Positions 5,550-23,319 of a stretch of DNA of 64,000 bases are shown here, one piece after another. Each line of letters opens with the position of its first letter. The stretch's first letter is position 1. Under the pieces are notes generated by a model. It saw nothing but the letters and a program-made list of their open reading frames with translations, searched no databases and had not been told where the DNA came from. Source of the DNA: Flavobacteriaceae bacterium CG2_30_31_66 (GTDB lineage Bacteria > Bacteroidota > Bacteroidia > Flavobacteriales > Flavobacteriaceae). The position numbers and the translations under genes were made by a program. The stretch is from assembly GCA_001873065.1 (NCBI GenBank), contig MNYM01000005.1, positions 26,805 through 90,804 of the forward strand, read 5' to 3'.

Positions 5550-5983
5550 GAAATTATATAATAAGGTCTTAATAATTGAAAACTCAAATTTTATTTAAAA
5601 TCTAACGAAAAAATAAGGTACTTAAAAAATAATTTGTTGCGTTTAAAAATTTTTTTTCACTTCAAAAAAAATTTCAAAAAGTAGTAAACTTGGGGAAATA
5701 TTTATCGATATGACAAAAAAATAACTATATAAATTATTTTTCAATAACCAATGCAAGATAAACAATATTTTTAAAATTAAATAGCTTTTACTTTTCATAT
5801 TTTTAACGTTATTTTTATGAATCGCTATTAAAAAAATAACTTTTGAAAAAAAATCATCATAAGTGTTTTACACCAAAAAAAGAAACAATAGAAAATGAAT
5901 AAACTTTGAAAAAAAAATATTAAGAAATATCTAAGAAATATATTGTATATTTATGCTTGAAATTAACCTTAAAAGAATTTATA
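5550..5983. other. Gene-free AT-rich spacer between divergent signalling and polysaccharide genes
   Basis: This 434-base stretch is extremely AT-rich, with many A and T runs. No credible coding frame is present; the minus-strand ORF at 5920-6111 is a shadow of the dehydrogenase. It must hold the promoters for the FIST gene (leftward) and the polysaccharide operon (rightward). Only imperfect matches to the TAnnTTTG element are seen, for example TATATTTA near 5946, so no site is assigned. Confidence 0.5.
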
Positions 5984-7312
5984 ATGAAAGTTACAATCGT
6001 TGGAAGTGGATATGTAGGACTTGTTACAGGTGCTTGTTTTTCTGAAGTTGGTATTGATGTTATTTGTGTTGACATTGATGCAAAAAAAATTGAAAATTTA
6101 AATAACGGCATTATACCTATTTACGAACCTGGTCTTGAGGAGATGATCATCCGTAATATGAAAAAAGGACGTTTGAATTTTACGACCAATATTTCTGGTG
6201 CTGTGAAAGAATCGGAAGTGGTTTTTATCTCAGTAGGAACTCCACCAGATGAAGATGGAAGTGCTGATTTAAAATATGTATTAGCAGTTGCAAGAGAATG
6301 TGGTAAAAATATGGACGATTACCTATTAATAGTCACAAAAAGCACGGTTCCTGTTGGTACTTCAATAAAAGTAAAAAAAGCGATTCAAGAAGAACTAGAC
6401 AAGCGAAATGTTGATATCCCATTTGATGTTGCTTCTAATCCTGAGTTTTTGAAAGAAGGTGCTGCCATCGCAGACTTTTTAAAACCTGACAGAATTGTGA
6501 TAGGTCTTGATTCGCCGAGAGCCGAGGACTTAATGAGAAGTTTATACAAACCATTTACTATGAATGGTCATCCAGTTATTTTTATGGACATTGTTTCTGC
6601 TGAAATGACAAAATATGCCGCAAACGCAATGCTTGCGACAAAAATTAGTTTTATCAATGACATTGCCAATCTTTGCGAAATAGTTGGCGCTGACATTAAT
6701 TGGGTAAGAAAAGGAATTGGCTCTGATACAAGAATTGGTTCTAAATTTATTTATCCAGGCATTGGTTATGGAGGTTCTTGTTTTCCAAAAGATGTTCAAG
6801 CATTGATAAGAACCGGAAATGATTACGATTATCAACTAAGAATCTTGAAAGCTGTTGAAGAAGTTAACAAAGATCAAAAAGAGATTATTTTCAATAAAAT
6901 AAATACCTATTTTAAAGGAGATTTAAAAGATAAGACCGTTGCAATTTGGGGACTTTCTTTCAAACCTCAAACTGATGATATGAGAGAAGCACCTGCATTA
7001 ATTGTTATTAAAAGGCTATTAGACGCTGGCGCAAAAGTAAATGTTTATGATCCTGTTGCAATGAAAGAAGCCAAACATCATTTTGGCGAAACTGTTTCTT
7101 ATTTTGAAGACCAATATGAAACTTTAATTGATGCTGATTGTTTAGCAATACTTACTGAATGGGCTGAGTTTAAAATTCCAAATTTCAAAATTATTCATAA
7201 ATTATTGAGCAATCCTGTGATTTTTGATGGACGAAATATTTATGACAAAGATGAAATGAAAGACAATGGATTTAATTATCATTGTATTGGTGTTGATACA
7301 TCAAAAAAATAA
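5984..7312 (+). CDS. ugd: UDP-glucose 6-dehydrogenase
   Basis: A 442-residue NAD-dependent enzyme that oxidises UDP-glucose to UDP-glucuronate, the precursor supply step of the polysaccharide locus. It has the N-terminal Rossmann motif GSGYVGLV, the KSTVPVGT and [11 protein letters not shown] blocks, the central dimerisation segment, and catalytic Cys266 in [10 protein letters not shown]. The ORF track starts at a TTG (5957); the ATG at 5984 is preferred because the conserved protein begins MKVTIVGSG directly before the Rossmann loop. It is the first gene of a long run of plus-strand genes, and the next gene uses its product. Confidence 0.95.
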
Positions 7313-7354: not shown

Positions 7355-8296
7355 ATGAAAACCTCTAAAAAGATTCTTGTTACAGGTGGTGCTGGTTTTG
7401 TTGGCTCACATCTTTGTGAACGATTGTTAAATGAAGGAAATGAAGTGTATTGCCTTGACAATTTTTTCACAGGACAAAAGAAAAATGTATTGCATTTGTT
7501 GGACAATCCTTTTTTCGAATTGATAAGACACGATGTTACAACCCCTTTTTTTATTGAAGCAGACGAAATTTATAACCTTGCATGTCCTGCATCTCCAATT
7601 CATTACCAACACAATCCCATCAAAACAGTAAAAACCTCTGTGATGGGCGCAGTAAATATGCTGGGACTTGCAAAAAGAATCAATGCAAAAATATTGCAAG
7701 CCTCAACAAGTGAAGTTTATGGAGATCCACTTGAGCATCCACAAAAAGAATCTTATTGGGGAAATGTGAACCCAATTGGCGAACGCTCTTGTTACGATGA
7801 AGGAAAACGCTGTGCAGAAACTTTGTTTATTGATTATCACAAACAAAATAAAGTAAAAATTAAAATCATCAGAATTTTCAATACTTATGGACCAAGAATG
7901 CATCCAAATGACGGAAGAGTTGTTTCTAACTTCATTGTTCAAGCATTAAAAAACCATGATATTACTGTTTATGGCGAAGGCCAACAAACCAGAAGCTTTC
8001 AATATGTTGATGATTTAGTTGAGGGAATGATTAGAATGATGGCTTCACCCAATCATTTTATAGGGCCTGTAAACATGGGAAATCCGAATGAATTCACGAT
8101 TCTTGAATTGGCAGAAAAAGTAATAAAACTTACTGGCTCAAAATCTAAAATCGTTTACAAACCAGCTCCTTCTGATGATCCAATGATGCGTCAACCAGAT
8201 ATTTCTATTGCAAAAAAAGAATTAGATTGGGCTCCAAAAATAGAATTAGAGGAAGGTTTGATTAAAACTATTGAATTTTTTAAGTCTATCATTTAA
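7355..8296 (+). CDS. UDP-glucuronate decarboxylase (UDP-xylose synthase)
   Basis: A 313-residue extended short-chain dehydrogenase that converts UDP-glucuronate to UDP-xylose. Visible are the NAD-binding [10 protein letters not shown], the active-site triad elements STSEVYGDP and Tyr147/Lys151 (CYDEGKR), and the family-typical [10 protein letters not shown] and GEGQQTRSF blocks. Length is normal for UXS. It lies 42 bases after the UDP-glucose dehydrogenase, so the pair makes UDP-xylose from UDP-glucose. This suggests that the polymer contains xylose, glucuronate or both. Other NDP-sugar epimerases share the fold, but the motifs and pairing favour UXS. Confidence 0.92.
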
Positions 8297-8360
8297 AAAA
8301 ACTTCAAAAGATTTTTTATCATCAAATAAAAAATTTAAACTTAAAGTAAATCTTAAAAAA

Positions 8361-8723
8361 ATGAGTGATAACATCCCCCAAGAAAAACTGTATGATCTTC
8401 AAATAATACATCAAATGTGTCGTGGAAACCATGATCAAGTAGAAAAGATGGTAGCGGTTTTTATAATCGAAGTTTCAAAAACTATTGGAGATATTGAAAG
8501 TGCACTTTCAGAAAAAGATTTTTCAAGAATCAAAAATTTAGCTCACAAAGTGAAACCAACACTCAATTATTTTGGTACAGTTTCGCTTGAAAAAGAAGTT
8601 ATTGAAGTAGAATCTTTATTGTCTAAAGATTTTAATATCAACGAACTACAATCAAAAATAGCCACAATAAGCGACATTTCAAAAAAGGTAGTTGACCAAT
8701 TAAAATCACATTTTAACTTATAA
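8361..8723 (+). CDS. Histidine phosphotransfer (Hpt) domain protein
   Basis: A 120-residue free-standing Hpt protein, an all-helical carrier of phosphate between receiver domains. The phosphorylatable His62 lies in LAHKVKPTLNYFG, the usual HxxKxxxxxxG arrangement. The ORF track starts at 8271 inside the preceding gene; the ATG at 8361 (MSDNIPQ) is preferred because the extra 30 residues are lysine-rich and not family-like. It is followed 19 bases later by a lone receiver. The hybrid kinase at 873-4355 is the only visible phosphodonor in the window, so a kinase-Hpt-receiver relay is a reasonable inference. Confidence 0.9.
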   Translation: MSDNIPQEKLYDLQIIHQMCRGNHDQVEKMVAVFIIEVSKTIGDIESALSEKDFSRIKNLAHKVKPTLNYFGTVSLEKEVIEVESLLSKDFNINELQSKIATISDISKKVVDQLKSHFNL

Positions 8724-8742
8724 ATTATAAATCTTTAAATTT

Positions 8743-9129
8743 ATGAAGAAAAAAATATTAATAGTAGATGACGAAAAAAGTATTTGTCTTTTATTAGAAA
8801 ATTTTCTGGCACAAGATTATGAAGTTGTCTCATTTAATGATGGTATTGAAGGATTGGTATGGCTTGAAAAAAATCTCCCTGATTTAATTATCAGTGATAT
8901 TCAAATGCCAAATATGGATGGTTATGAGTTTTTGACAAGCGTTCGTCAAAAAGGTTTTACGAAACACACTCCTGTTATCATGTTATCAGGAAAATCTGAA
9001 AGTAAAGAGCGTATAAAATGTTATAGACTTGGTGCGCAAGATTACTTAACGAAACCATTTAATCCTGAAGAACTTGAAGAGTTAGTAAAGAAAAACATGT
9101 TTCCAATTCACTTTGCAATAGAATGGTAA
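8743..9129 (+). CDS. Single-domain response regulator
   Basis: A 128-residue CheY-like receiver with no output domain. It has the acidic pair in LIVDDE, phosphoacceptor Asp52 (SDIQMPNMDG), Ser/Thr in VIMLSGKS and Lys104 in YLTKPF, so it should be phosphorylatable. It sits directly after the Hpt gene and before the sugar-1-phosphate transferase, which itself carries a receiver-like N-terminus. It probably acts by protein-protein contact; the partner is unknown. The adjacent pseudo-receiver enzyme is one candidate. Confidence 0.92.
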   Translation: MKKKILIVDDEKSICLLLENFLAQDYEVVSFNDGIEGLVWLEKNLPDLIISDIQMPNMDGYEFLTSVRQKGFTKHTPVIMLSGKSESKERIKCYRLGAQDYLTKPFNPEELEELVKKNMFPIHFAIEW

Positions 9130-9172
9130 TGAATTGATAGTCAATTTTTAAAATAACCATACACAAGCTAAA

Positions 9173-10375
9173 ATGACAAACCCTACTCTTACAATAATGT
9201 ATATTGGCAAAACATCATCGTATTTTGAGAATATCAAAATACGAAATGAAATCTCGCTAGTTTCAATGGAAAATAGCATTGCCGCCACAAATTACCTCAA
9301 TGAAAATAAATCACCAGATGCCATTATTTGCGAATATAATTTGGCAGGAAATAATGGGTTATTTTTTTTTGATTGGATTAAAAAGCAAGAAAAATTTCAT
9401 GGAGTGCCATTTATCTTGTTGACCAAAGAATTTAGTATTGATGTTTATAAACTCTCTTTCACACAATCTGTTGACGATTATTATGCTACTTCGGTCACAA
9501 AACCTGAGGATATTATAAACAGAATTGAATTTTTCAATAAGTACATAAAAAATAATATTAAAATAAATACTCCAAGAGACAAAGAAGAAATTTTTAAAAT
9601 GCCACTTTCAAAAAGAATTTTTGACATTTTTGTAGCCTCATTTGTACTTTTGGTTGCTTCTCCTTTTTTACTATTGATACTACTTGCAATAAAATTAGAA
9701 TCAAAAGGAAAAGTATATTACATCTCAAAAAGAGTTGGCAGAAAAACATTTGATTTTTATAAACTAAGATCAATGAGAACAGGCTCTGATGAACTTCTTA
9801 AAAAATTAGCTGCAGAAAAAAATCAATACAACACCCAACCTAAAGCTAACGAAAACATTTTTGATATGCCTTGCCCAAGATGCAGCAAATTAACAATAGG
9901 AGAAACTTGTTCGCCATTGATGTATATTGAAAATCATCAAATTTGTGACTATTGGTACAATCATCAAAAAAATGAAGCCGCAAATAATAGTGCCACATTT
10001 GTAAAAATTGTAAATGATCCACGAGTTACAAGAGTTGGAAAATTCATCAGAAATACAAGTATTGATGAATTGCCTCAACTTATCAATGTTTTAAAAGGCG
10101 ATATGTCTATTGTTGGCAACAGACCATTACCAGTTTATGAAGCTGAATTGTTAACTGCAGACGCTTTATCAAACCGATTTTTAGCTCCAGCAGGAATCAC
10201 AGGCTTATGGCAAGTAGAGCTGAGAGGGAAAGGAGGAAACATGTCCGAAGAAGAAAGAATTAGATTAGACAACGAATATGCAGAGCATTTTAAGGGTGAT
10301 AATTATTCATTTTGGTACGATATGAAACTTATTTTGAGAACCATTCCTGCTTTGCTTCAAAAAGATTCTGTTTAA
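9173..10375 (+). CDS. Pseudo-receiver / polyisoprenyl-phosphate sugar-1-phosphate transferase fusion
   Basis: A 400-residue protein that should attach the first sugar phosphate to undecaprenyl phosphate, starting the repeat unit. Residues 1-130 fold like a receiver but have lost the active site: the phosphoacceptor position reads IICEYN (Glu54) and the N-terminal acidic pair is absent. The transferase starts near residue 143 (LSKRIFDI), with a hydrophobic membrane segment at about 152-174, then FYKLRSMR, catalytic Asp-Glu in SIDELPQL, MSIVGNRPLP and the GLWQVE end. A cysteine-containing insert (Cys234, 237, 246, 258) interrupts the domain between the LRSMR and KFIRNTSIDE blocks, a possible zinc site. 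The sugar donated cannot be read from sequence. Confidence 0.93.
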   Translation: MTNPTLTIMYIGKTSSYFENIKIRNEISLVSMENSIAATNYLNENKSPDAIICEYNLAGNNGLFFFDWIKKQEKFHGVPFILLTKEFSIDVYKLSFTQSVDDYYATSVTKPEDIINRIEFFNKYIKNNIKINTPRDKEEIFKMPLSKRIFDIFVASFVLLVASPFLLLILLAIKLESKGKVYYISKRVGRKTFDFYKLRSMRTGSDELLKKLAAEKNQYNTQPKANENIFDMPCPRCSKLTIGETCSPLMYIENHQICDYWYNHQKNEAANNSATFVKIVNDPRVTRVGKFIRNTSIDELPQLINVLKGDMSIVGNRPLPVYEAELLTADALSNRFLAPAGITGLWQVELRGKGGNMSEEERIRLDNEYAEHFKGDNYSFWYDMKLILRTIPALLQKDSV

Positions 10376-10398: not shown

Positions 10399-11142
10399 AT
10401 GAAATTAAGCTTAAAATGTATAGTAATTGTTGTGATAAATTTTTGTTGCAACTGTTATTTATCCGCACAAAATACCCCAATTGAAAAAGTTATCGCAATA
10501 AAAAGTAAAATAAATATTCCTCCTTTGAACGTTATTATTGATTCTGTCTTAAAAAATAACGCAATGCTTAAATTCCGAAAACAAGGGATAGGTGTAAAAG
10601 AATCAACACTAGAGTCAGAGAAAATTTATTGGACAAGAAATTTGGGTATTCAAGCAGAAACGAGATATGGAACTTTAAATAGCTTTTCAACAAGTGCTGA
10701 CGGAAATTCAACAGCCGCTTTTGCAACAACTGCCACTCAATTTAATTATAGTGCGGGAATATATTTGAAGTTTCCCGTTTTTGATTTTTTGAACAGAAAA
10801 AAGCAAATAACGCTTGCAAGACTTGAAATTGAACAAGCAATAAGTATTGAGCAATCTTTAAAAGATGAAATAAGACAAAATGTGATAAAATTATATCATG
10901 ATTTACTATTAAAACAAAGAATACTTCAAATACGATCTGAAAGTTTGGGAAGTGGACGAGTTAATATGCAAATGGCTGAAAAAGAATTTAGAAATGGAGT
11001 CATTCAAGTCACAGAATATGCTCGAATTTCTGGAATTACTTCAAATTTAGAGGCAGATTATGAATTCGCAAAGTCAGAATTTATCATCGCTAAAAGTATC
11101 TTAGAAGACATGGCAGGATTTAATTTTGGCATCACTAATTGA
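10399..11142 (+). CDS. TolC-like outer-membrane factor, half length
   Basis: A 247-residue secreted protein with a signal peptide (hydrophobic core followed by LSAQ). The body has the alternating beta-strand and long-helix pattern of TolC proteins, including a strand segment near FNYSAGIYLKFPVFD and amphipathic helices rich in E, K and Q. TolC-family members usually hold two such repeats in about 420-490 residues; here only one is present, and the frame ends cleanly. It lies between the initiating transferase and the Wzz-like gene, the place where an OPX/Wza export protein is often found, and no OPX gene is seen in the locus. An export-channel role is inferred. Confidence 0.72.
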   Translation: MKLSLKCIVIVVINFCCNCYLSAQNTPIEKVIAIKSKINIPPLNVIIDSVLKNNAMLKFRKQGIGVKESTLESEKIYWTRNLGIQAETRYGTLNSFSTSADGNSTAAFATTATQFNYSAGIYLKFPVFDFLNRKKQITLARLEIEQAISIEQSLKDEIRQNVIKLYHDLLLKQRILQIRSESLGSGRVNMQMAEKEFRNGVIQVTEYARISGITSNLEADYEFAKSEFIIAKSILEDMAGFNFGITN

Positions 11143-11149
11143 AAAAAAA

Positions 11150-13537
11150 ATGAATATTATTGAATTTTTAAGACTCATTATAAAGCATTTAAGGCTGTTG
11201 ATTATTGCGCCTTTTTTGCTTGCTATTTTGGTTATAATGCTCACGATGAAACCTAGTTTTAAATATTCATCCCAAACCATTTTATATACAGGTCTTGCAA
11301 CAGGCAGCTCTATTGAAATGGAAAAAACGTTTAATTATTTTGCCACAAATTCTGCTTTTGACAATTTAATTAACATCATAAATTCAAGAGAAACCCAAGA
11401 AGAAGTTGCCATCAGATTGTTAACGCAACATTTAATGCTTCCTGGGGCAAATCCAAAGTATATATCAAAAAAATTATATGACGAATTTAAAATAAAAATT
11501 CCGAGTCACATTTACAATTACATCGAAAAAGATGAGATTACTGATGTTTCAAAAAAAGATTCAATCGAAAACTATTATAAGAAAAAACCACTATTTCCCA
11601 GAGAAATAAATCCTATTAATTATGAAAAAACAGTTAAAAATTTGACAGTTTTAATGAGAAGTAGCAATGATAATTTTATTTATGAAATACTCAATTATGA
11701 AGATGACCATTATTCTTTGAAAGAATTATCAACCATAAGTGCCACTAGAATCAATTCAAGTGATTTGGTAAAAATGAGTTACACCACAAACGACCCAGGA
11801 ATTTGCCAACAAACATTGGCAATTTATAATGAAGTTTGCATCAAAAATTATAAAAATATCAAAGAAAATAGGTCTGATGCTGTTGTCAAATATTTTGAAG
11901 AACAACTCGTAGAAGCCAATAAAAAACTTAAAATCGCAGAAGATAAATTATTAGAATTCAATAAATCCTACAATATCATCAATTACTATGAGCAAAGTAA
12001 AGCTGTTGCAGTAGTAAAGGAAGATATGGAAGTAGATTATAATAATAAAAAAGCAAAATTGGCTGGAACGATTGCAGCAACAAAAAAAATTGAAGAAAAA
12101 CTAGAAATCCAGAAAAAAATTCAAATTTTAAACAATGAGGTTTTAGATAAAAAGAAAAAACTGGGCAATTTGAACTACGAAATTGCAATTAATGAAACAA
12201 TGTTAACTTCGGATAAAAACCAAACAATTGCCAAAGAATTAATTGCATTAAAAAGTGAAAGAGAAAAACTAACGGACGATATTCAACAACAAGTTAATCA
12301 AATATATCAATTTGAAAATTCTATTGAAGGCATTCAAAGAGGAAAAGCACTCCCTGAATGGTTAGATAATGTGATTGAAACCGAAAATTTGAAAGCAAGT
12401 ATTGGCGTGATGGATAAACGCAACAAAGATTTCAAAGAGCAATATTCCATTTATGCTCCTGCTGGGGCAAATATCAAAAGAATTGAACGCGAAATTTCGG
12501 TTTCAGAACAAGGCTATTTAGAAATTTTACATGGATTAAACTTAGCCAAACTGAAACTCCAAGACAACGAATTATCATCCAATTTAAAAACAATTGATGC
12601 ACCATACTATCCATTATCTCCAATTCCAGGAAAAAGAAAAATTCTTGTTGTGGCTGCTCTGTTTTTAGGAACTATATTAATTTTAGCTATCATTTTATTA
12701 ATGGAATTTTTTGACAACACGCTGAAAAATTCAGAAAAAGCAACAAAAAAATTAGGGTTAAAATCATTGGGAATGATTCCGAAAATTTTATTAAATCCTG
12801 GAAATATGAATTTTCAATTTATTCAAAATAGATTAATAGAAATCATCACTCAAAATATCAAACAATTTATAAATACACATTCAACAGCAAATGAGGTTAA
12901 AACCATAACTATTTTTAGTACTCAAAAAATGGAAGGAAAAACAGTTTTAGCTGGTAATATTTTAAAAATTTTAAAAAAAGAAGGAAAAAAAGTACTATTT
13001 TTAACCTATTCTGAAAAACAAAAAGCTTTATTTCAATCAAAAAAATCTCCAATAATTAATAAAATTTTTGGTTATCCTGATCCACGAGTTGATGTTGATA
13101 ACATTTTTTTGGCTGACGTTTCATCTTATCTTGAAAATCGAGAAATCAGAATCTATAATTTGAATGAACAATTTGATAAAGTGTCAAATTATACTGATAT
13201 TTTAGAACAAAGTAATTTAAAAATTGATTATATCCCTGATTATGTGATGATTGAGTTACCTGCAATGATTTATAATAATTATCCAACAACTTTGATTAGC
13301 AATGCCGACTTTAATATTTTGACTTGTAGATCAAATAGAACTTGGGCAGAAGCAGACAAAACAATTCTCGAAAATTTGTTGCAATTATCCCCTTCAAAAA
13401 TTAATTTTATTTTGAATGGTGTAAATATCAACGAAATTGAGGCTGTTCTTGGTGATCTTCCTAAAAAAAGAAGTACCATTAGAAAAAAAATAAAATCTAT
13501 ATTTAAGTTTCAATTTTTTTCTAAAAATCAAATTTAA
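11150..13537 (+). CDS. Wzz/GumC-type polysaccharide co-polymerase with degenerate tyrosine-kinase-like domain
   Basis: A 795-residue inner-membrane protein. Transmembrane segments at about 20-38 and 497-520 enclose a periplasmic region of about 450 residues with long coiled coils (about 245-400). The cytoplasmic C-terminus resembles the BY-kinase ATPase but is decayed: the Walker A region reads STQKMEGKT, the Walker A' strand VLFLTYSE lacks its acidic residues, and the Walker B position reads VMIELPAM. No C-terminal tyrosine cluster is present. The TTG at 11126 in the ORF track would overlap the previous gene; the ATG at 11150, 7 bases after its stop, fits better. It is expected to control chain length and to bridge to the outer-membrane exporter. 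Confidence 0.85.
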   Translation: MNIIEFLRLIIKHLRLLIIAPFLLAILVIMLTMKPSFKYSSQTILYTGLATGSSIEMEKTFNYFATNSAFDNLINIINSRETQEEVAIRLLTQHLMLPGANPKYISKKLYDEFKIKIPSHIYNYIEKDEITDVSKKDSIENYYKKKPLFPREINPINYEKTVKNLTVLMRSSNDNFIYEILNYEDDHYSLKELSTISATRINSSDLVKMSYTTNDPGICQQTLAIYNEVCIKNYKNIKENRSDAVVKYFEEQLVEANKKLKIAEDKLLEFNKSYNIINYYEQSKAVAVVKEDMEVDYNNKKAKLAGTIAATKKIEEKLEIQKKIQILNNEVLDKKKKLGNLNYEIAINETMLTSDKNQTIAKELIALKSEREKLTDDIQQQVNQIYQFENSIEGIQRGKALPEWLDNVIETENLKASIGVMDKRNKDFKEQYSIYAPAGANIKRIEREISVSEQGYLEILHGLNLAKLKLQDNELSSNLKTIDAPYYPLSPIPGKRKILVVAALFLGTILILAIILLMEFFDNTLKNSEKATKKLGLKSLGMIPKILLNPGNMNFQFIQNRLIEIITQNIKQFINTHSTANEVKTITIFSTQKMEGKTVLAGNILKILKKEGKKVLFLTYSEKQKALFQSKKSPIINKIFGYPDPRVDVDNIFLADVSSYLENREIRIYNLNEQFDKVSNYTDILEQSNLKIDYIPDYVMIELPAMIYNNYPTTLISNADFNILTCRSNRTWAEADKTILENLLQLSPSKINFILNGVNINEIEAVLGDLPKKRSTIRKKIKSIFKFQFFSKNQI

Positions 13538-13548
13538 ATTAAAATTTT

Positions 13549-14931
13549 ATGAAAACCCTCAAAAAAATTATTCGCGAAGATAATTTTCTTTCATTAACAG
13601 GAAATGTTGTAATTGCTATTTTAGGAATTGCAAGTTTTGCTTTGCTTGCCAGAAGTTTGTCTTTGGAGGTTTTTGGTGAATGGGTTTTATTTATTGCAGC
13701 AGGTTCATTTGTTGAAATGTTTCGTTTTGGAATTACCAATACTGGACTCATAAGGTATTTATCTGGCGCAGATGATTCTTCAAGAATTAAATTGATTGGT
13801 TCAAATGCTTTGATTGGTTTTGGAGCTACAACCCTAATTGCCATAATCATTTATGTATGTAATATTTTTTTCTACGAATCAATCAACAATGCTGGTTATG
13901 GATTGTTTTTTAAATGGTATCCATTATTGGCATTTTTAAATTTACCATGGAATAATGCCTTGGTTGTATTGCAAGCAGACAGAAAATATGCACAAATTCT
14001 ACTCTTAAAAACAATCAATAGTGGCGTTTTCTTTTTAGTAATTGTAGCTCATTTTAGTAAACTTAATTTGAGTTTAAATCAATTGGTTATTGCATTATTG
14101 ATTATTAATGCTATGACTTCTTTGATCAGTTTAATTTTGGGTTGGGACGGCATAAAACACGTTGTAAAAGCAACAAATGAAACCAGTAAAACTTTATTAA
14201 ACTTCGGAAAATACACCACTTTCACGCTGATTGGCACCAATTTATTGAGAAATGTTGATACGTTAATTCTTAGTTTAAGCCCTCTTGGAAATGCTGCTGT
14301 AGCTTTGTATAGTATTCCATTAAAACTCACTGAATTGCAACAAATTCCTCTGAGAAGTTTTGTGGCAACTGCATTTCCTAAAATGTCAAAAGCCAGCGTT
14401 CAAGGAAAAGCGGAGGAAGTAAAAGAGTTGTTTTATCAGTATTCTGGGGCATTATCTTATCTATTTGTTTTCATAAGTCTCTTTACATTCATTTTTGCCG
14501 AATTTTTCGTTCAATTACTCTCTGGAAATCAATATCTAGAAACTAGTCCTAACGGATTTAATGTGGTAAATATCGTACGTGTTTTTTCACTTTACGGACT
14601 TTTATTACCTATCGATAGAATGACTGGGATTGCACTTGACAGCATCAATAAACCAAAAATAAACGCAGTTAAAGTATTCATTATGTTGTTTGCAAATATT
14701 TTAGGTGATTTAGTGGCAATTTTTATTTTTAAATCATTGATGCTAGTTGCAGTTGCTTCCATTGTCTTTACTGCCATCGGCATCTGGATGGGAATGTATT
14801 TTTTAACAAAGGAAATACCATTGTCTTACAAAGAAATTTTTTCTTCTGGTATCAAATTTTACCTTTCTATGTTCAACAAAATCACAAAACATCGATATGA
14901 AAATATTGTAAAACTTGAGAGAAAATTTTAA
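13549..14931 (+). CDS. Polysaccharide flippase (Wzx-like, MATE/MOP superfamily)
   Basis: A 460-residue integral membrane protein with about 12 hydrophobic segments. It begins with a short charged tail followed by LSLTGNVVIAILGIASFALLA, cut here to the family-like start pattern of polysaccharide biosynthesis proteins. It should turn the lipid-linked repeat unit across the inner membrane. The gene starts 11 bases after the Wzz-like gene and ends 3 bases before the polymerase gene, a tight Wzx/Wzy arrangement. The substrate is unknown. Confidence 0.88.
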   Translation: MKTLKKIIREDNFLSLTGNVVIAILGIASFALLARSLSLEVFGEWVLFIAAGSFVEMFRFGITNTGLIRYLSGADDSSRIKLIGSNALIGFGATTLIAIIIYVCNIFFYESINNAGYGLFFKWYPLLAFLNLPWNNALVVLQADRKYAQILLLKTINSGVFFLVIVAHFSKLNLSLNQLVIALLIINAMTSLISLILGWDGIKHVVKATNETSKTLLNFGKYTTFTLIGTNLLRNVDTLILSLSPLGNAAVALYSIPLKLTELQQIPLRSFVATAFPKMSKASVQGKAEEVKELFYQYSGALSYLFVFISLFTFIFAEFFVQLLSGNQYLETSPNGFNVVNIVRVFSLYGLLLPIDRMTGIALDSINKPKINAVKVFIMLFANILGDLVAIFIFKSLMLVAVASIVFTAIGIWMGMYFLTKEIPLSYKEIFSSGIKFYLSMFNKITKHRYENIVKLERKF

Positions 14932-14934
14932 ACC

Positions 14935-16416
14935 ATGGAAACAGAAAGTAACATCAATCCATTTGAAAATTATTCAGGGTCAAACAACCTTGCAAAACCA
15001 GGATTTTTACTTTCTGTTTTGGCTTTTATTGCTTTTGTGGCAATTGTCATAGCAAAATTTCAAATCATTGGCATTGGACTATTTTTTGCAGTGGTTATTG
15101 GAATTGTTTACTTGAATTATATTTTTAATCATCCAATAATTGGTTTTTATACAGCTATTTCACTCAATTTTATTTTATTGGGTTTAGGGCGTTATGTTAC
15201 AGGTTTACCTCTTGGATTTGGCATTGATGGCATTCTTATCTTGACTTATGTTGCACTATTTTTTAATAAATTTAAAGAGCGAATAGATTTAACTCCTATC
15301 AAAAAAGATGTCACAATTTTAGTGATAATTTGGTTTGGATATTCCATTTTACAACTTGCAAATCCCGAAGCAAGAAGCGTTTCTGCATGGATTTCAGGTA
15401 GAGGAATTGCTTTTTATCCATTGTTGTTTGTTCCTCTCACACTCTACTTCATTGATACTCACAAAAAATTAAATATTTTTTTATATGTTTGGGCTATTTT
15501 CTCAATACTCGCTACTTTAAAAGGCATTATGCAACTGTATTTTGGCGTTGATGCGGCAGAACAAGCTTGGCTTAATGAGGGGAGTTACAAAACTCATATT
15601 TTATTTGGCAAACTTCGGGTATTTTCATTTTACAGTGACGCAGGACAATTTGGTGCAAATCAAGGATATACAGGAGTTGTTTTCTTGATATATTCACTTT
15701 CACAAAAAGAATTACTATCTAAAATATTTTTCATTTTAGTAGGACTTTTAGGGATTTATGGTATGGTAATTTCCGGAACAAGAGGTGCATTGAGCGTTCC
15801 AATGGCTGGCTTTATGACGTACTTTTTTTTGAGTAAAAATATAAAAGTATTGAGTGCTGGTATTTTATTTTTAATTTGTGTTTTTATATTTTTTAAGTTT
15901 ACCATGATTGGTCAGGGAAATTCCCAAATACGAAGAATGAGAACTGCTTTTGATCCAAATGATGCCTCACTTCAAGTCCGCTTAAACAATCAAAAAATAC
16001 TAAAAAATTATCTTGCATCAAGACCTTTTGGGGGAGGAATTGGTCATGGAGGAACAAAAGCCCAAAAATATTTACCAAATGCTTTTCTATCAAATGTAGC
16101 AACAGATAGTTGGTATGTTTTAATTTGGGTTGAACAAGGAATTATTGGATTATTACTTCATTTAAGTATTCTTTTCTATATCATGGGAAAAGCAAGTTTC
16201 AATGTAATGTTCAGAATTCGCGATCCAATTTTAAGGTATAAAATATCAGCTTTGATTGCCGGAATGGCAGGAATCATGGTGGCTTCTTACGGAAATGCAG
16301 TTTTAGGTCAAATGCCAACTGCGCTTCTAATTTATGCAACAATGGCAATCATCTTAAATACAAAAGTCATAGAAGATTCAGAAAAAAATTCTGAAGAAGC
16401 AATTTTAAAAAAATAA
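14935..16416 (+). CDS. O-antigen polymerase/ligase-like membrane protein (Wzy-like)
   Basis: A 493-residue protein with about 11-12 hydrophobic segments and a large soluble loop (about residues 330-390) that includes SRPFGGGIGHGG, resembling the Wzy_C region of O-antigen ligases and polymerases. GTRGALS before the loop is a frequent family motif. In this locus it most likely polymerises repeat units in the periplasm. A ligase role cannot be excluded from sequence, since both groups share the fold. Confidence 0.82.
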   Translation: METESNINPFENYSGSNNLAKPGFLLSVLAFIAFVAIVIAKFQIIGIGLFFAVVIGIVYLNYIFNHPIIGFYTAISLNFILLGLGRYVTGLPLGFGIDGILILTYVALFFNKFKERIDLTPIKKDVTILVIIWFGYSILQLANPEARSVSAWISGRGIAFYPLLFVPLTLYFIDTHKKLNIFLYVWAIFSILATLKGIMQLYFGVDAAEQAWLNEGSYKTHILFGKLRVFSFYSDAGQFGANQGYTGVVFLIYSLSQKELLSKIFFILVGLLGIYGMVISGTRGALSVPMAGFMTYFFLSKNIKVLSAGILFLICVFIFFKFTMIGQGNSQIRRMRTAFDPNDASLQVRLNNQKILKNYLASRPFGGGIGHGGTKAQKYLPNAFLSNVATDSWYVLIWVEQGIIGLLLHLSILFYIMGKASFNVMFRIRDPILRYKISALIAGMAGIMVASYGNAVLGQMPTALLIYATMAIILNTKVIEDSEKNSEEAILKK

Positions 16417-16460: not shown

Positions 16461-17399
16461 ATGAACTACAGAAATATAACAGCCCTTAACAATATCATTC
16501 TCAAAAGATTAAGTATTATTCCACGTGATTTTGATTTGATAGTTGGTGTTCCTAGAAGTGGTATGCTTCCAGCAAATTTGTTAGCACTTTATCTAAACAG
16601 ACCATACACAGATATTCATTCGTTTTTGAATGGTCACATTTATAAAGCTGGTGCAAGAAGTCAGTTTTTTGATATTTCTGAGTTTAAAAAAATCTTAGTA
16701 GTTGATGATAGTATTGCTTCTGGTTCAGCAATGATTGAGGTAAAAGAAAGTCTAAAACACTTAGAATCAAAGTTTGATATTAAATATTGTGCGGTTTATA
16801 TCATTCCAGGAAAAGAAAAAATGGTTGATTATTTCTTTGAAATTGTGCCACTTCCAAGATATTTTCAATGGAATATTTTGAATCATACAACACTTGAAAA
16901 AGCGTGTTTTGATATTGATGGTGTTTTGTGTGAAGATCCTTTACCAGAACAAAATGATGATGGTGAAAAATATATTGATTTTATTTTAAACGCGCCACCA
17001 TTATTTATTCCTGGAAGTAAAATAGGTACAATTGTCACTTCAAGATTGGAAAAATATCGAAAAGAAACCGAAACGTGGCTAAAAAACAACAACATCAAAT
17101 ACAATGATTTGGTAATGCTTGATTTGCCAAACATGGCTGCTCGTCAAAAGGCAAACAATCATGGAGACCATAAAGCAAAAGCATATATGGCAAAACCTTA
17201 TGTGCTATTTGTTGAAAGTGAACTTCATCAAGCAATTGAAATCAATAGAATTTCTAAAAAACCAGTTTTGTGTACAGCAAATTTTGAAATGATTTTTGAA
17301 TCTGAATCTTTTATGTACAATCTTAAAAGCGGAAAACACCTTCCTTTTTTAAGAAAATATGGATTAAAATTGAGAGATTTTCTAAAAAAATTCAAATAA
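16461..17399 (+). CDS. Type I phosphoribosyltransferase fused to a HAD-like domain
   Basis: A 312-residue two-domain protein. Residues 1-135 look like a type I PRTase: VGVPRSGMLPANLLA, then the PRPP-binding loop VVDDSIASGSA (80-90). Residues 148-290 look like a HAD phosphatase: catalytic DIDGVLCEDP (Asp151/Asp153), a motif II-like VTSR, and a lysine segment (HKAKAY); the motif IV region reads FVESE rather than paired aspartates. PRPP-dependent transfer followed by dephosphorylation is a known way to add ribofuranose to bacterial polysaccharides, so a role as a ribofuranosyl-adding enzyme is an attractive inference given its place between polymerase and glycosyltransferase genes. It is unlikely to be a housekeeping nucleotide enzyme. 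Confidence 0.8.
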   Translation: MNYRNITALNNIILKRLSIIPRDFDLIVGVPRSGMLPANLLALYLNRPYTDIHSFLNGHIYKAGARSQFFDISEFKKILVVDDSIASGSAMIEVKESLKHLESKFDIKYCAVYIIPGKEKMVDYFFEIVPLPRYFQWNILNHTTLEKACFDIDGVLCEDPLPEQNDDGEKYIDFILNAPPLFIPGSKIGTIVTSRLEKYRKETETWLKNNNIKYNDLVMLDLPNMAARQKANNHGDHKAKAYMAKPYVLFVESELHQAIEINRISKKPVLCTANFEMIFESESFMYNLKSGKHLPFLRKYGLKLRDFLKKFK

Positions 17400-17446: not shown

Positions 17447-18649
17447 ATGATGACACTATTTAATCTTATCCAAATTCTGCTCCTTGTTTTACTTGGATTG
17501 GCAACACTTTATATTTTTATTTTTTCAATAGCTGGAATTTTTTACAAACAAAAACCATATTCTTTAAATGGAAAATTAAAAAAAATTGCAGTACTTATTC
17601 CTGGTTATAAAGAAGATGCTGTGATTATTGAGGTTGCAAATGCTGCTTTGCAACAATCTTATCCATCAGATTTTTTTGATCTAGTGATTATAGCAGATTC
17701 TTTTCAACCAAAAACTATTGAATCTCTAAAAAAATTACCAATTAAAGTGATTGAAGTTAGTTTTGAAAAAAGTACCAAATCAAAAGCACTAAATGCAGCA
17801 ATGGCATCATTAACAAAAAAATATGAAATTGCAGTGGTTTTAGATGCTGATAATGTGATGGAAAAAGATTTCTTGCACAAAATAAATACGACTTTCGAAC
17901 AGAATTTTATCGCAGTTCAAGGGCATAGAACTGCAAAAAACACCAATAATTCTTGGGCAATTCTTGATGCAATTAGCGAAGAAATTAACAATCATATTTT
18001 TAGAAAAGGTCACAGAGTCTTAGGACTTTCATCTGCAATTATTGGTTCAGGAATGGCTTTTAGATACGATTATTTTAAATCGCTCATGTCAACAGTAACT
18101 GCTGTAGGTGGTTTTGATAAAGAAATTGAATTAAAAATGCTCAAAGACGGACACAAAATCATGTATTTGGAAAATGCAATGGTGTATGATGAAAAAATCC
18201 AGAAATCAGAAGTATTCGAAAATCAACGCCGAAGATGGCTTTCTGCACAATTTCATTACTTCAAAAAAGATTTTTTGAATGCTTTGAAAGATTTGATTTT
18301 GAAAGGAAATGTTGATTATTTTGATAAAGCAATACAATTTATTCAACCACCAAGAATCTTATTATTAGGAGCTGTTCTAGTATTTAGTTTACTTTTTATT
18401 ATTGTAAATTATTTTTTTGAAAATTCAATTCCTTACTCAAAAATTTGGATTTTAATTTGTATTCTCTGTGTTTTATCATTCGCTTTTGCAATTCCAAGAT
18501 CATTTTATAATCGGAAAACACTTAATGCTTTGGCAAGTTTGCCAAAAGGAATGTTGGTGATGTTGCTGTCTTTATTTAAATTAAAAGGCGCAAATAAAAC
18601 ATTTATTCACACAGAACATACTTCAACAAACGAAAAATCAAAAACTTAA
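17447..18649 (+). CDS. Membrane-anchored family 2 glycosyltransferase
   Basis: A 400-residue processive-type GT2. An N-terminal membrane helix (about 7-30) is followed by the GT-A domain: VLIPGYKEDAVI, the nucleotide-sugar acidic motif VVLDADN, and QRRRWLSAQF, equivalent to the QxxRW motif of cellulose and hyaluronan synthases. Two or three membrane helices follow at the C-terminus. It acts at the cytoplasmic face of the inner membrane. Donor and acceptor are unknown. The presence of the QxxRW-like motif does not prove that it is processive, because many single-addition enzymes in Wzy-type loci share it. Confidence 0.88.
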   Translation: MMTLFNLIQILLLVLLGLATLYIFIFSIAGIFYKQKPYSLNGKLKKIAVLIPGYKEDAVIIEVANAALQQSYPSDFFDLVIIADSFQPKTIESLKKLPIKVIEVSFEKSTKSKALNAAMASLTKKYEIAVVLDADNVMEKDFLHKINTTFEQNFIAVQGHRTAKNTNNSWAILDAISEEINNHIFRKGHRVLGLSSAIIGSGMAFRYDYFKSLMSTVTAVGGFDKEIELKMLKDGHKIMYLENAMVYDEKIQKSEVFENQRRRWLSAQFHYFKKDFLNALKDLILKGNVDYFDKAIQFIQPPRILLLGAVLVFSLLFIIVNYFFENSIPYSKIWILICILCVLSFAFAIPRSFYNRKTLNALASLPKGMLVMLLSLFKLKGANKTFIHTEHTSTNEKSKT

Positions 18650-18671: not shown

Positions 18672-19727
18672 ATGAGTTCAAAAAGATTTGAAAAATTAGA
18701 GGCAATTAGAGGATTTGCAGCCATTTATGTGGTACTTTTCCATGTTTTGCCTCAAAAGATTTTCCTTTTTGGCATCAATATAGGAATCCTTTTTAGGTTT
18801 GGATCAGAAGCTGTGATTGTGTTTTTTATTTTGAGTGGTTTTGTAATTCGATATTCATTTGATAGATATCCAGATAAATCATTTAAATATTATTTTATAA
18901 GGCGATTTATAAGATTGTATGTCCCTTTAATTTTTATTTTTTTACTGGGTTATATTCTAAAATCGGTTCAAGAAGGAATGCTTGCAAATCCAGAATGGCA
19001 ATCATTATTTGGCAATTTATTGATGTTACAAGATGTCATTTCTTTAAAACCAAACGTAATTTCTGCCACTTATTTAGGAAATGGTGTGCTTTGGTCTTTG
19101 TCTTATGAATGGTGGTTTTACATGCTTTTCTTTTTAATTATCAAATTTTTTCCTGATAAAACTCGAAATAAATGGGTATATATATTATTGATAATTAGCG
19201 CATTATCCTATCTTTTTTTTCCATTTATCATCAATAGAGTGTTGATGTATTTTGCCACTTTTTGGATTGGTGTTTCACTTGCTGATTTATACCTCAAAAA
19301 CAAAGAAATTACCTTCAAAGCAATCCTACCATTTATCTATATTTTTGTTGGAATTCTATTGATTTTAAGTTTAAATCTTTATTTGAATTTTTCTTACACA
19401 AAAGTCTATGATTATCCTTTGGTTGCCTATCCAATTATTGAGTTAAGACATCTAACAGCCGCGTTTTTATTGATGTTTGCGGGTATCATTTGGCATCAAA
19501 TCCAATGGATTGGTTTTGACAAAATCTTTAGAATATTCAAATATTTAGCGCCATTTTCTTACGTGATTTATATTTCACATCATGATTTGGTTGTGGAAGC
19601 TACCTATTTGGATTTTATTGAAAATAAAGTCCTAAAATACAGTCTTTATATTCTAGTAATGTTGCTATTTTCTTACGTTTTGGAAGTTGTAATTTATGAA
19701 AGAATTAAAAGAAAAATAATACATTAA
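18672..19727 (+). CDS. Acyltransferase family 3 (OafA/YrhL-like)
   Basis: A 351-residue protein with about ten membrane helices. The N-terminal block KLEAIRGFAAIYVVLFHVLP has the Arg and His expected of the family active site, and RRFIRLYVPLIF matches the following conserved Arg block. These enzymes move acetyl or other acyl groups across the membrane onto sugars. Here it most likely O-acetylates the repeat unit or the polymer. It sits 22 bases after the previous glycosyltransferase, inside the operon. Confidence 0.9.
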   Translation: MSSKRFEKLEAIRGFAAIYVVLFHVLPQKIFLFGINIGILFRFGSEAVIVFFILSGFVIRYSFDRYPDKSFKYYFIRRFIRLYVPLIFIFLLGYILKSVQEGMLANPEWQSLFGNLLMLQDVISLKPNVISATYLGNGVLWSLSYEWWFYMLFFLIIKFFPDKTRNKWVYILLIISALSYLFFPFIINRVLMYFATFWIGVSLADLYLKNKEITFKAILPFIYIFVGILLILSLNLYLNFSYTKVYDYPLVAYPIIELRHLTAAFLLMFAGIIWHQIQWIGFDKIFRIFKYLAPFSYVIYISHHDLVVEATYLDFIENKVLKYSLYILVMLLFSYVLEVVIYERIKRKIIH

Positions 19728-19748: not shown

Positions 19749-20909
19749 ATGAAAATAGGAATAGAAGGTCAACGACTTTTTCGTAAAAAAAAGCATGGCA
19801 TGGATATGGTTGCTTTAGAGTTGATAAAAAATCTCCAAATCATTGATAAAGAGAATGAATATTTCATTTTTGTAAAACCTGATGAAGATTACACAGCACT
19901 TAAAGAAACATCCAATTTCAAAATTATTCAATTAAAAGGAGGTCCTTATCCAATTTGGGAACAATTTGCGTTGCCAAAAGCAGCAAAAAAAATGGGATGT
20001 AATATATTGCATTGTACCAGTAATACTGCCCCAATTTTTACTGATATTCCATTGATAACTATTTTACATGATATTATTTACATGGAGAGTAGTTATTACA
20101 AAATTCTCACAGGAAGTGCATCTCCATATCAAAAGTTTGGAAACGTTTACCGAAAAATTATTGTGCCTTGGGTTGTCAAAAAAAGTGATAAAATTATCAC
20201 AGTATCTCATTTTGAAAAAAAACGAATTGCAGAATTTTTTGGAATGAAAAATGAAGGCAAACTCGATGCAATTTATAATGGAGTAAGTGAACATTTTAAG
20301 CGAATTTCCGACGAAAATGAATTGAAAAGAGTGCGAGAAAAATATCATTTGCCAGATCATTTTTTCTTCTTTTTAGGAAATACTGATCCAAAAAAAAACA
20401 CCTTAGGAACATTAAAAGCATTTTCTGATTTTTTAAAAGAGAGTAACTCCGATTATAAATTGGTGATGCTTGATTATGACGCAACTGAACTTCAAAAAAT
20501 ATTAATTGAAATTGGAGACACACAACTCATCAATCAAATTGTATTAACAGGCTACGTTATCAATACTGATTTGCCAGCAATATATTCATTATGCACCATT
20601 TTCTTATATCCATCTTTGCGCGAAAGTTTTGGAATTCCAATGCTTGAAGCTATGGGTTGTGGCGTTCCAGTAATCACCTCTAATACTTCATCAATGCCAG
20701 AAGTTGCAGGTGATGCCGCACACATTGTCAATCCTTTTCACCCACAAGAAATCACACAAGGATTGCATAAAATTATTTCTGATAAAACCTATTATCAAAC
20801 TCTTAGCGAAAAAGGACTGGAAAGAAACCAACTTTTTTCATGGAGAAACATGGCAAAAGAATATTTGAAACTTTATGAAATTATTTACACAAAACATTCA
20901 AAAAAATAG
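19749..20909 (+). CDS. GT4-type glycosyltransferase
   Basis: A 386-residue GT-B fold enzyme of the glycosyltransferase 1/4 group. The N-terminal domain begins [12 protein letters not shown]; the C-terminal domain has [12 protein letters not shown] and the retaining-enzyme signature [18 protein letters not shown] with the ExxxxxxxE spacing. No membrane helix is present. It should add one sugar to the lipid-linked repeat unit in the cytoplasm. Its stop codon is 6 bases before the next glycosyltransferase. Confidence 0.92.
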
Positions 20910-20915
20910 GCAATC

Positions 20916-22118
20916 ATGACAGAAGGTAAAAATATTATTTGCATTTCTCAAACAACTTGGTATGGAGAATTTACCAAATCAACTGTTCAATTATTATCAT
21001 TGTTAGCCGCTAAAAACAACATTTTTTTTGTTGAGTATCCATTCACGGTCAAAGATGTAATCATGTCAATTCTAGGAAAACAGCGAGCACAAGTTGCTAG
21101 AATGTTTGGTTTTAAAAAGCGAATTCAAACAATAAAAACACCTTTTGAAACAACCATAAATCACCTTGTGATGCCTCCAGTTTTACCTGTCGATTTTATA
21201 AAAAACGAAACTATTTTCAACTTTTTCTTCGGAATTAATGCCTTTATCTATAAATATCAATTAAAAAAAATTATCAAAAAATACCAACTTAATAATCCCA
21301 TAATTATTACCGCTTACAATCCAATGTATGGCTTGGCAATGGTTGGAAAATTGAAGGAATTTTTGAATATTTATTATTGTTATGATGGAATGGATACCCA
21401 AAGACACAAATCAAGAATTTATGATATTGAGACGGAATTTTGCAAAAAAGTTGACGGAATTATCACTACTTCAGATTATTTGAATTCAGAAAAATTGAAA
21501 TTAAATAAAGAAAGTTTTGTAGTAAAAAATGGTGTTGATTTTAATTTATTTGTTCCTCATGCAAAAAAATCGGTTTCTGAAAATACTCTTGAAAAAAAAG
21601 TGGGTTATATTGGAACCTTGGATTTTCGATTTGATATTGACATAATGGAATTTGCAATTAAAAATTTACCACAAGTCACATTCGAATTTACTGGTTATTT
21701 ATTGAATCATCAAATTGTTGAACGTTTATCAACTTATAAAAATGTGTCATTTTTCGGCTCTGTAAAAGCAGAAGAAGTTCCAAAATTGTTGGCAAAATAC
21801 GATGCAGGAATTATTCCATACAAGATGGATGAAGTCAATAAAAATATTTATCCATTGAAAATTAATGAATATTTAGCAGTGGGAGTTCCTGTAATTATGA
21901 CAGCTTTTGCAAATTTAACCGATTTTGAAAACATGGTTTCTTCTGCAAAAACCAAAGAAATTTTCAAAGAATGCATTGAAAATGAGCTAACTAATGATTC
22001 TCTTTCTCAAATCGAAAAACGAATTTCATTTGCAAAACAAAACTCTTGGGAAGGAAGAGCAGTAGAATTTGAAAATATTTTAGAGTATTTCATCAAACAA
22101 AAAAATAAAAAAGCTTAA
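20916..22118 (+). CDS. Glycosyltransferase, GT-B fold, divergent
   Basis: A 400-residue GT-B enzyme, more divergent than its neighbour. It begins with ICISQTTWYGEFTKS and has YYCYDGMDTQRH in the middle; the C-terminal domain has VGYIGTLDFRFD and YPLKINEYLAVGVPVIMT, equivalent to the donor-binding region of GT1/GT4 proteins. No membrane helix is present. Sugar specificity is not readable. Operon position (6 bases after one glycosyltransferase, 10 before the next) supports a role in building the repeat unit. Confidence 0.87.
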   Translation: MTEGKNIICISQTTWYGEFTKSTVQLLSLLAAKNNIFFVEYPFTVKDVIMSILGKQRAQVARMFGFKKRIQTIKTPFETTINHLVMPPVLPVDFIKNETIFNFFFGINAFIYKYQLKKIIKKYQLNNPIIITAYNPMYGLAMVGKLKEFLNIYYCYDGMDTQRHKSRIYDIETEFCKKVDGIITTSDYLNSEKLKLNKESFVVKNGVDFNLFVPHAKKSVSENTLEKKVGYIGTLDFRFDIDIMEFAIKNLPQVTFEFTGYLLNHQIVERLSTYKNVSFFGSVKAEEVPKLLAKYDAGIIPYKMDEVNKNIYPLKINEYLAVGVPVIMTAFANLTDFENMVSSAKTKEIFKECIENELTNDSLSQIEKRISFAKQNSWEGRAVEFENILEYFIKQKNKKA

Positions 22119-22128
22119 AAATAAAGCC

Positions 22129-23319
22129 ATGTTCACACTTAAAATTTTATTCTGGATATTACTTTTTATCATCGTTTACACGTATGTTGGTTATGGAATT
22201 TTATTATTTGCCATTATAAAAATCAGAAGAGTATTTAAAATTGGTCAAAAAGAAAAATATTTTCCAAATTTTGAACCTGAAGTTACCTTGTTTATTGCTG
22301 CATACAATGAAAAAGATTTTGTAGATGCAAAGATGAAAAATACTTTAGAACTTGAATATCCGAAAGAAAAATTGAATATTGTTTGGGTAACAGATGGTTC
22401 TGATGATGGAACTCCAGATTTGTTGAAAAAATATTCCAATACTCAAGTGCATCATTTGCCAGAAAGAAATGGAAAAATTGGCGCAATGAATCGTGGAATG
22501 AAATTCGTAAAAACACCTATTGTGATCTTTAGTGATGCGAATACGATGCTTGGAAAAGAATCTATCAGAAAAATTGTGAGTCTTTTTGGAAACCCAAAAG
22601 TAGGCTGTGTTTCAGGAGAAAAAAGAATTATGAGCAAAGAAAGTGATGCTGCATCTGGAGCTGGTGAAGGTTTGTATTGGAAATATGAATCCGCTTTAAA
22701 AAAATGGGATGCAGAGCTTTATTCTGTAGTTGGTGCTGCAGGTGAACTATTTGCAATTAGAACAGAATTGTATAAACACATGGAACAAGACACACTTTTG
22801 GATGATTTTGTAATCTCTTTGAGAGTGGCACAAGATGGATATACCATTCAATATGACCCAGATGCGTATGCCATTGAAACAGCTTCAGCCAATGTAAAAG
22901 AGGAATTAAAACGTAAAATACGAATTTCAGCTGGCGGCATTCAAGCAATTGTTAGATTGCGTTCTTTGTTGAATATTTTTAAATATGGGACTCTTTCTTT
23001 TCAATATATTTCTCATCGCGTTTTACGTTGGACACTGACACCTCTTTGTTTGATAATTCTAATTCCAGTATCATTTTTAGTAGCTTTTAACGAAGGAATT
23101 TTTTCTTTTAGATTCTATGCAACATTTTTTTGGTTGCATTTAATTTTCTATATAGCCGCTTTGACAGGTTGGTTTTTGGAAAATAGATCTACAAGAATTA
23201 AAATATTATTTATTCCTTATTACTTTTTTATCATGAATTTATCTGTTGTTTTAGGATTTTTTAGATACATGAAAAAATCACAATCTGTGAATTGGGAAAG
23301 AGCAAAAAGAGGAAATTAA
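22129..23319 (+). CDS. Family 2 glycosyltransferase with membrane segments, last gene of the polysaccharide operon
   Basis: A 396-residue protein with one N-terminal membrane helix (about 5-28), a GT-A domain and about three C-terminal helices. Motifs include LFIAAYNEKDF, VTDGSDDGT, the metal-binding-like IFSDANT, a catalytic-acid region LLDDFVISLR, and KRKIRISAGG in the place of QxxRW. It resembles the cellulose-synthase-like GT2 enzymes of Bacteroidota. A strong bidirectional terminator follows 21 bases downstream, marking the operon end. Confidence 0.9.
   Translation: MFTLKILFWILLFIIVYTYVGYGILLFAIIKIRRVFKIGQKEKYFPNFEPEVTLFIAAYNEKDFVDAKMKNTLELEYPKEKLNIVWVTDGSDDGTPDLLKKYSNTQVHHLPERNGKIGAMNRGMKFVKTPIVIFSDANTMLGKESIRKIVSLFGNPKVGCVSGEKRIMSKESDAASGAGEGLYWKYESALKKWDAELYSVVGAAGELFAIRTELYKHMEQDTLLDDFVISLRVAQDGYTIQYDPDAYAIETASANVKEELKRKIRISAGGIQAIVRLRSLLNIFKYGTLSFQYISHRVLRWTLTPLCLIILIPVSFLVAFNEGIFSFRFYATFFWLHLIFYIAALTGWFLENRSTRIKILFIPYYFFIMNLSVVLGFFRYMKKSQSVNWERAKRGN

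Follow-up and report, generated by a model that had tools for sequence, protein, structure and literature searches.

The window analysed here, a stretch of 64,000 nucleotides from Flavobacteriaceae bacterium CG2_30_31_66 (contig MNYM01000005.1), raises the question of what a single protein joining a phosphoribosyltransferase (PRTase) to a HAD-type phosphatase does within a polysaccharide gene cluster. The original prediction was that it adds ribofuranose to the polymer, transferring 5-phosphoribose from PRPP and then removing the phosphate. The joining of a PRPP-binding loop and a HAD phosphatase in one 312-residue open reading frame was found as described, and its placement in a polysaccharide locus was borne out, since Ugd, UXS, a PGT, Wzz/Wzc, Wzx, Wzy, four glycosyltransferases and an acyltransferase are encoded around it.

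The locus and the fusion protein

The genes of the locus are as follows:

5957-7312, plus strand: Ugd, UDP-glucose 6-dehydrogenase (sequence)
7355-8296, plus strand: SDR protein of the dTDP-glucose dehydratase/UDP-xylose synthase (UXS) type, probable UDP-glucuronate decarboxylase (inferred substrate)
9173-10375, plus strand: polyprenyl glycosylphosphotransferase (PGT; PF02397, E=1e-52) with an N-terminal receiver-like domain (PF00072, E=7e-5)
11126-13537, plus strand: Wzz/Wzc-like chain-length protein (sequence and conserved synteny)
13549-14931, plus strand: Wzx-like flippase (weak TuaB/Wzx similarity)
14935-16416, plus strand: Wzy-type O-antigen ligase/polymerase (PF04932, E=2e-10)
16461-17399, plus strand: PRTase-HAD fusion protein, proposed two-step ribofuranosyltransferase (312 aa, ATG start)
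17447-18649, plus strand: GT2 glycosyltransferase, the usual next gene after PRTase-HAD in Bacteroidota (match and synteny)
18672-19727, plus strand: acyltransferase family 3 (PF01757, E=5e-29)
19749-20909, plus strand: GT4 glycosyltransferase
20916-22118, plus strand: GT4 glycosyltransferase, TuaH-like
22129-23319, plus strand: GT2 glycosyltransferase

That xylose or glucuronate would neighbour the ribofuranosyl residue is predicted only from the presence of Ugd and UXS in the locus. Upstream, at 8271-10375, an HPt-like protein and a response regulator precede the PGT, whose receiver-like domain apparently carries Glu at the phospho-Asp position (AIICEYNLAG). Many loci of Flavobacteriaceae retain this response regulator–PGT pair, which suggests phosphorelay-linked control of the initiation of exopolysaccharide synthesis.

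The two halves recur in the same order in 50 genome loci, 41 plasmids and 13 E. coli genomes, so the fusion is neither a chance event nor an assembly error. A full-length AlphaFold2 model built from a 30-sequence alignment had a mean pLDDT of 87.6. Residue conservation was counted in an alignment of 64 sequences, and the parts of the protein that it highlights are listed below:

16461-16883, plus strand: type-I PRTase domain with an XGPRT/HGXPRT-like fold, about aa 1-141 (PF00156, profile and Foldseek)
16545-16562, plus strand: pyrophosphate-binding loop GVPRSG, aa 29-34 (R32 and S33 in 63/64, G34 in 64/64)
16692-16730, plus strand: PRPP-binding loop ILVVDDSIASGSA, aa 78-90 (D83 and G88 in 64/64)
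16857-16874, plus strand: hood segment RYFQWN, aa 133-138 (R133 in 63/64, W137 in 64/64, N138 in 63/64)
16896-17291, plus strand: HAD-type phosphatase domain, about aa 146-277 (motifs, model pLDDT 93, weak Foldseek matches)
16911-16940, plus strand: HAD motif I DIDGVLCEDP, aa 151-160 (D151 and D153 in 64/64)
16947-16973, plus strand: family signature EQNDDGEKY, aa 163-171 (N165, D166, D167 and Y171 in 64/64)
17037-17054, plus strand: HAD motif II TSRLEK, aa 193-198 (T193 in 63/64)
17172-17174, plus strand: HAD motif III, K238 (64/64)
17214-17219, plus strand: HAD motif IV, E252-S253 (64/64), an unusual pair replacing Asp-Asp

The Pfam model PF00156 (Pribosyltran) spans residues 15-124 of the N-terminal half with E=1.2e-9, above the curated cut-off. 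The nearest profile matches of this half in a PDB search were the solved purine PRTases 4z1o/4trb, and its best Foldseek match was E. coli XPRTase (XGPRT). The window protein has the canonical D82-D83 pair; across the alignment, position 82 is Asp in 58 of 64 sequences and Glu in five, and D83 is invariant. The Asp of the DDVADTG motif serves as the catalytic acid/base of purine PRTases. Residue 86, which aligns with it, is Asp in a single sequence and Ala or another residue in the other 63.

No Pfam model matched the C-terminal half. Its assignment as a HAD phosphatase is based on the motifs, on weak PHROG and PDB profile matches to PNKP-type HAD phosphatases and on a confident fold, the half modelled alone reaching a pLDDT of 93.3. 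The best Foldseek matches, themselves weak, were 4fyp and 4xru (plant vegetative storage protein, acid-phosphatase-like, and Pnkp1). From the motifs, D151 is predicted to be the nucleophile and D153 the acid/base. Stand-alone HAD proteins of about 140 residues from Flavobacteriales (loci L003-L013) share the HAD core and lack the EQNDDGEKY and FxES signatures.

In distant members, the HAD half is 48-61% identical to that of the window protein and the PRTase half 32-49%. The better conservation of the HAD half could be explained by a constant phosphoribosyl product or donor sugar combined with a variable acceptor.

Distribution of the family

The PRTase-HAD fusion occurs in at least six phyla. 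Close relatives, with 68-93% identity, belong to Bacteroidota, and distant ones (44-51%) to Bacillota, alpha- and gammaproteobacteria, Synergistota, Fibrobacterota and Elusimicrobiota, as judged by record titles. The 41 plasmids carrying the gene are alphaproteobacterial. Within the class to which the window belongs, it was found in four of 395 genomes, its own included, that is, in about 1% of class members; the corresponding counts, with the starting genomes included, were 6/321, 5/289 and 1/291 in the classes of loci L070, L060 and L059, respectively. It is thus an accessory gene. A viral origin was rejected, since phage records and viral contigs yielded zero relatives.

In some genomes the PRTase-HAD unit bears a further fusion, to a GT2 glycosyltransferase (L057, L068), an FkbM methyltransferase (L059) or a SAM methyltransferase (L064). 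Two PRTase-HAD genes occur together on a plasmid of Rhodobacter sp. CZR27 (L076; 10001-10975 and 12629-13579), with a flippase, a GT4 and an acyltransferase, and genome G1250 likewise has two.

Genomic neighbourhoods

In Bacteroidota the gene belongs to a cassette with the order PGT-OMF-Wzz-Wzx-Wzy-PRTHAD-GT2-(acyltransferase)-GT4-GT4-GT2, which is kept across Flavobacteriaceae and recurs, with variations, in Chitinophagaceae and Bacteroidales. In a set of loci outside Bacteroidota, GT, Wzx, PGT or related genes lay within 8 kb in 19 of 33 cases, a lower bound obtained with a small reference set, compared with none of 13 control stretches, which were taken from part of these genomes and from a few Bacteroidota genomes. 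Near-duplicates are present among the 33 loci (L060 and L113 denote one and the same site, and the plasmids L073 and L074 resemble each other), and one locus, L058 (Belliella), is itself from Bacteroidota. That the count is a lower bound is supported by annotated glycosyltransferases at L071 and L077, a WecG/TagA glycosyltransferase at L104 and the GT2 fused to the unit at L068. At the high-GC loci L105 and L106, the simple gene caller produced spurious genes.

A related Wzx subfamily is encoded adjacent to or near the gene in about ten loci (L060/L113, L072-L076, L078, L107 and L109) and also in the E. coli O105 and O183 clusters described below. In alpha- and gammaproteobacteria this placement of the subfamily, next to the PRTase-HAD gene or near it, has the look of a joint inheritance of flippase and terminal sugar.

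Several relatives, such as those of Shewanella at L070 and L110, lie in places where no glycan genes could be recognised nearby. On Rhizobium plasmids, the members at L071 (11995-13293) and L077 (10001-11290) have glycosyltransferase and T6SS vgrG genes as neighbours, and a caspase-family gene is next door at L071. In the Selenomonadales loci L061 and L066 the gene is directly upstream of genes whose size and order correspond to IspD and IspF; the neighbours gave two IspD and two YgbB matches, and no glycan locus was recognisable there.

Relatives in E. coli O-antigen clusters

A blastn walk starting from a Shewanella gene reached the family in E. coli, where the relatives are single genes located between galF and gnd, beside wzx, in O105 and O183. 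Over about 280 residues, the encoded proteins share 43-44% identity with the window protein. The O105 type, represented by 11 genomes, has the layout galF-rmlBDAC-GT-wzy-GT-wbsX-GT-[PRTHAD]-wzx-gnd, as seen in the five of the eleven regions that were inspected, and the O183 type (two genomes) has the layout galF-GT2-GT4-wzy-GT4-GT-manC-manB-[PRTHAD]-wzx-gnd. The only sugar-nucleotide genes within galF-gnd are rmlBDAC in O105 and manB/manC in O183. Since PRPP is supplied by general metabolism, neither cluster would need a dedicated ribose nucleotide pathway.

Partial similarity of the O183 and O169 clusters was noted by DebRoy et al. (PMC4732683). In our comparison (L084 versus L086), a 9.56-kb stretch extending up to manB shows 97.1% identity between the two, and they diverge beyond it: O183 has the PRTase-HAD gene and its own wzx there, and O169 has IS sequences together with another glycosyltransferase and a different wzx. 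The O169 junction contains ISAs1-family transposase genes, remnants included. As the divergence falls at the PRTase-HAD/wzx module, the most economical interpretation is a difference of one residue between the O units of O183 and O169, which in O183 would be supplied by the PRTase-HAD protein. We predict ribofuranose in the O105 and O183 polysaccharides. The open papers that were found give beta-Ribf for E. coli O114 and O5ac and make no mention of it for O105/O183 or for S. boydii types 10/11. O169 corresponds to S. boydii type 6.

Comparison with known systems

Experiments on other PRT+HAD proteins have demonstrated the chemistry of transfer followed by dephosphorylation on which the original prediction drew (PMC11127046, PMC10299916, PMC11231755). 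Bipartite gPRT-PRP ribofuranosyltransferases include, according to PMC11127046, PMC11231755 and PMC10299916, ORF5 of Klebsiella O4, ORF7 of O7 and the Thermobacillus composti protein 7SHG. The window family resembles them in combining a PRPP-dependent glycan PRTase with a HAD phosphatase, in its occurrence in glycan loci and in the predicted two-step reaction; it differs in having no sequence-profile match to 7SHG.

The CriT/CrpP part of Haemophilus influenzae type b Bcs3 (8A0C, 8A0M) is similar in carrying a ribofuranosyltransferase of the PRTase fold and a HAD phosphatase on one chain. However, the HAD domain precedes the PRTase in Bcs3 and follows it in the window protein. In CriT, which has helical bundles, separate D680 and E818 replace the DD motif, and in CrpP the second Asp of DxD is not conserved, unlike the first (PMC10299916). 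The window protein, in contrast, has a compact PRTase of about 140 residues, an intact DxD and a canonical DD in the PRPP loop, with no CriT-type split D/E found.

The type-I PRTase fold is shared with E. coli XGPRT and Sulfolobus HGXPRT, nearest to the N-terminal half by fold and profile, but the window protein lacks the purine catalytic Asp, is fused to a HAD domain and occurs in a glycan context. Citrobacter ORF15 and mycobacterial Rv3806c PPPRS, UbiA-type polyprenyl-phosphate phosphoribosyltransferases, also use PRPP as donor, and ORF15 bears a HAD PRP domain as well (PMC11127046); they differ in their UbiA membrane fold and polyprenyl phosphate acceptor.

The suggested comparison with characterised polysaccharide phosphoribosyltransferases and phosphatases did not yield a homologue, as the sequence profiles match neither 7SHG nor 8A0C/8A0M. 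These three entries, whose presence in the searched PDB copy is unconfirmed, were absent from the best 60 PDB matches of the full-length profile and from the HAD-profile matches at E<=10. Transfer of function from the solved enzymes by sequence was therefore rejected, because the profiles fall short of the characterised ribofuranosyltransferases. The gene lies in a glycan locus, as in gPRT-PRP and CriT-CrpP, although this does not hold for every member of the family. By analogy, it is well supported that the family would work like gPRT-PRP and CriT-CrpP, while membership in either is not supported by the sequence comparisons. Part of the PRTase-HAD family may already figure in the survey of Kelly et al. 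2022.

Proposed mechanism and alternative functions

The best available explanation, which we regard as probable, is that the protein is a cytoplasmic PRPP-dependent two-step ribofuranosyltransferase. The N-terminal XGPRT-like half would bind Mg-PRPP and move 5-phosphoribofuranose from it onto a hydroxyl group of a lipid-linked oligosaccharide; the linkage formed would presumably be beta, through inversion. The HAD half at the C-terminus would then remove the 5-phosphate, leaving a ribofuranosyl residue acceptable to the flippase and polymerase. The acceptor, the ribose in the product, the inversion and the order of the steps are what we infer here. The evidence for this explanation comprises the residue invariance, the galF-gnd placement, the O183/O169 divergence, the fusions to GT2 and methyltransferases, the conserved Bacteroidota cassette, the 19/33 versus 0/13 count of loci with glycan genes, the difference in conservation between the halves and, by analogy, the chemistry shown elsewhere. 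Against it stand the missing homology to characterised enzymes, the E-S pair of motif IV, the members lacking glycan neighbours, the T6SS context in Rhizobium, where glycosyltransferases are nonetheless present, and the fact that the nearest solved relatives are purine PRTases. The claim that one protein would carry out both steps fits the catalytic residues of the two halves, the glycan neighbourhoods, the additional fusions and the missing purine Asp; it finds no counterpart in recognisable sequence homology to characterised enzymes.

An unlikely alternative is that the phosphoribose ends as something other than ribofuranose, be it arabinofuranose after epimerisation, a retained ribose phosphate or a product on a non-glycan acceptor. 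Sequence fixes neither the acceptor nor the final sugar, and the atypical motif IV and the isolated members would fit such an outcome. However, no dedicated epimerase recurs beside the gene in the loci inspected, and candidate residues for all four HAD motifs are conserved.

Slightly harder to sustain, and in our view improbable, is a function as a PRTase for purine or other nucleobases coupled to a nucleotidase, which would produce a nucleoside by salvage chemistry, the glycan locus being incidental. The XGPRT/HGXPRT-like fold and profile matches and the retention of W137 in the segment aligned with the purine hood agree with this. However, all but one of the 64 sequences lack the DDVADTG Asp, and the gene is accessory and recurs in O-antigen and exopolysaccharide loci and in fusions to GT2 and methyltransferases.

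Synthesis of a lipid-linked donor (undecaprenyl-phosphate ribose) for use outside the membrane, as in three-component pentofuranose systems, shares the PRPP and HAD logic of Citrobacter ORF15 (PMC11127046) but is very improbable, since ORF15-type enzymes act through a membrane domain of the UbiA kind, whereas Pfam shows no UbiA match in the window protein, which is modelled as a soluble alpha/beta protein, and the examined genes of the locus included nothing recognisable as a dedicated GT-C or DprE-type epimerase.

Implications

The joining of PRTase and HAD in one protein is genuine and conserved, and in several phyla it has a strong link to polysaccharide synthesis. More tentatively, with the chances a little below even, it could represent an independently recruited class of glycosyltransferases, in which an XGPRT-like salvage PRTase that formed N-glycosidic nucleotides was turned to O-glycosylation of polysaccharides with its own phosphatase permanently fused, spread over at least six phyla and accounting for a ribofuranose in O105 and O183. 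The proposed two-step function is directly testable, since relatives occur in two E. coli O-antigen clusters, one of which differs from its sister serotype essentially at the PRTase-HAD module. If true, it would assign a role to proteins whose annotation goes no further than hypothetical or phosphoribosyltransferase, would allow ribofuranose to be predicted from the sequences of many exopolysaccharide and O-antigen clusters, and would reveal a second route from a nucleotide-salvage fold to a glycosyltransferase.
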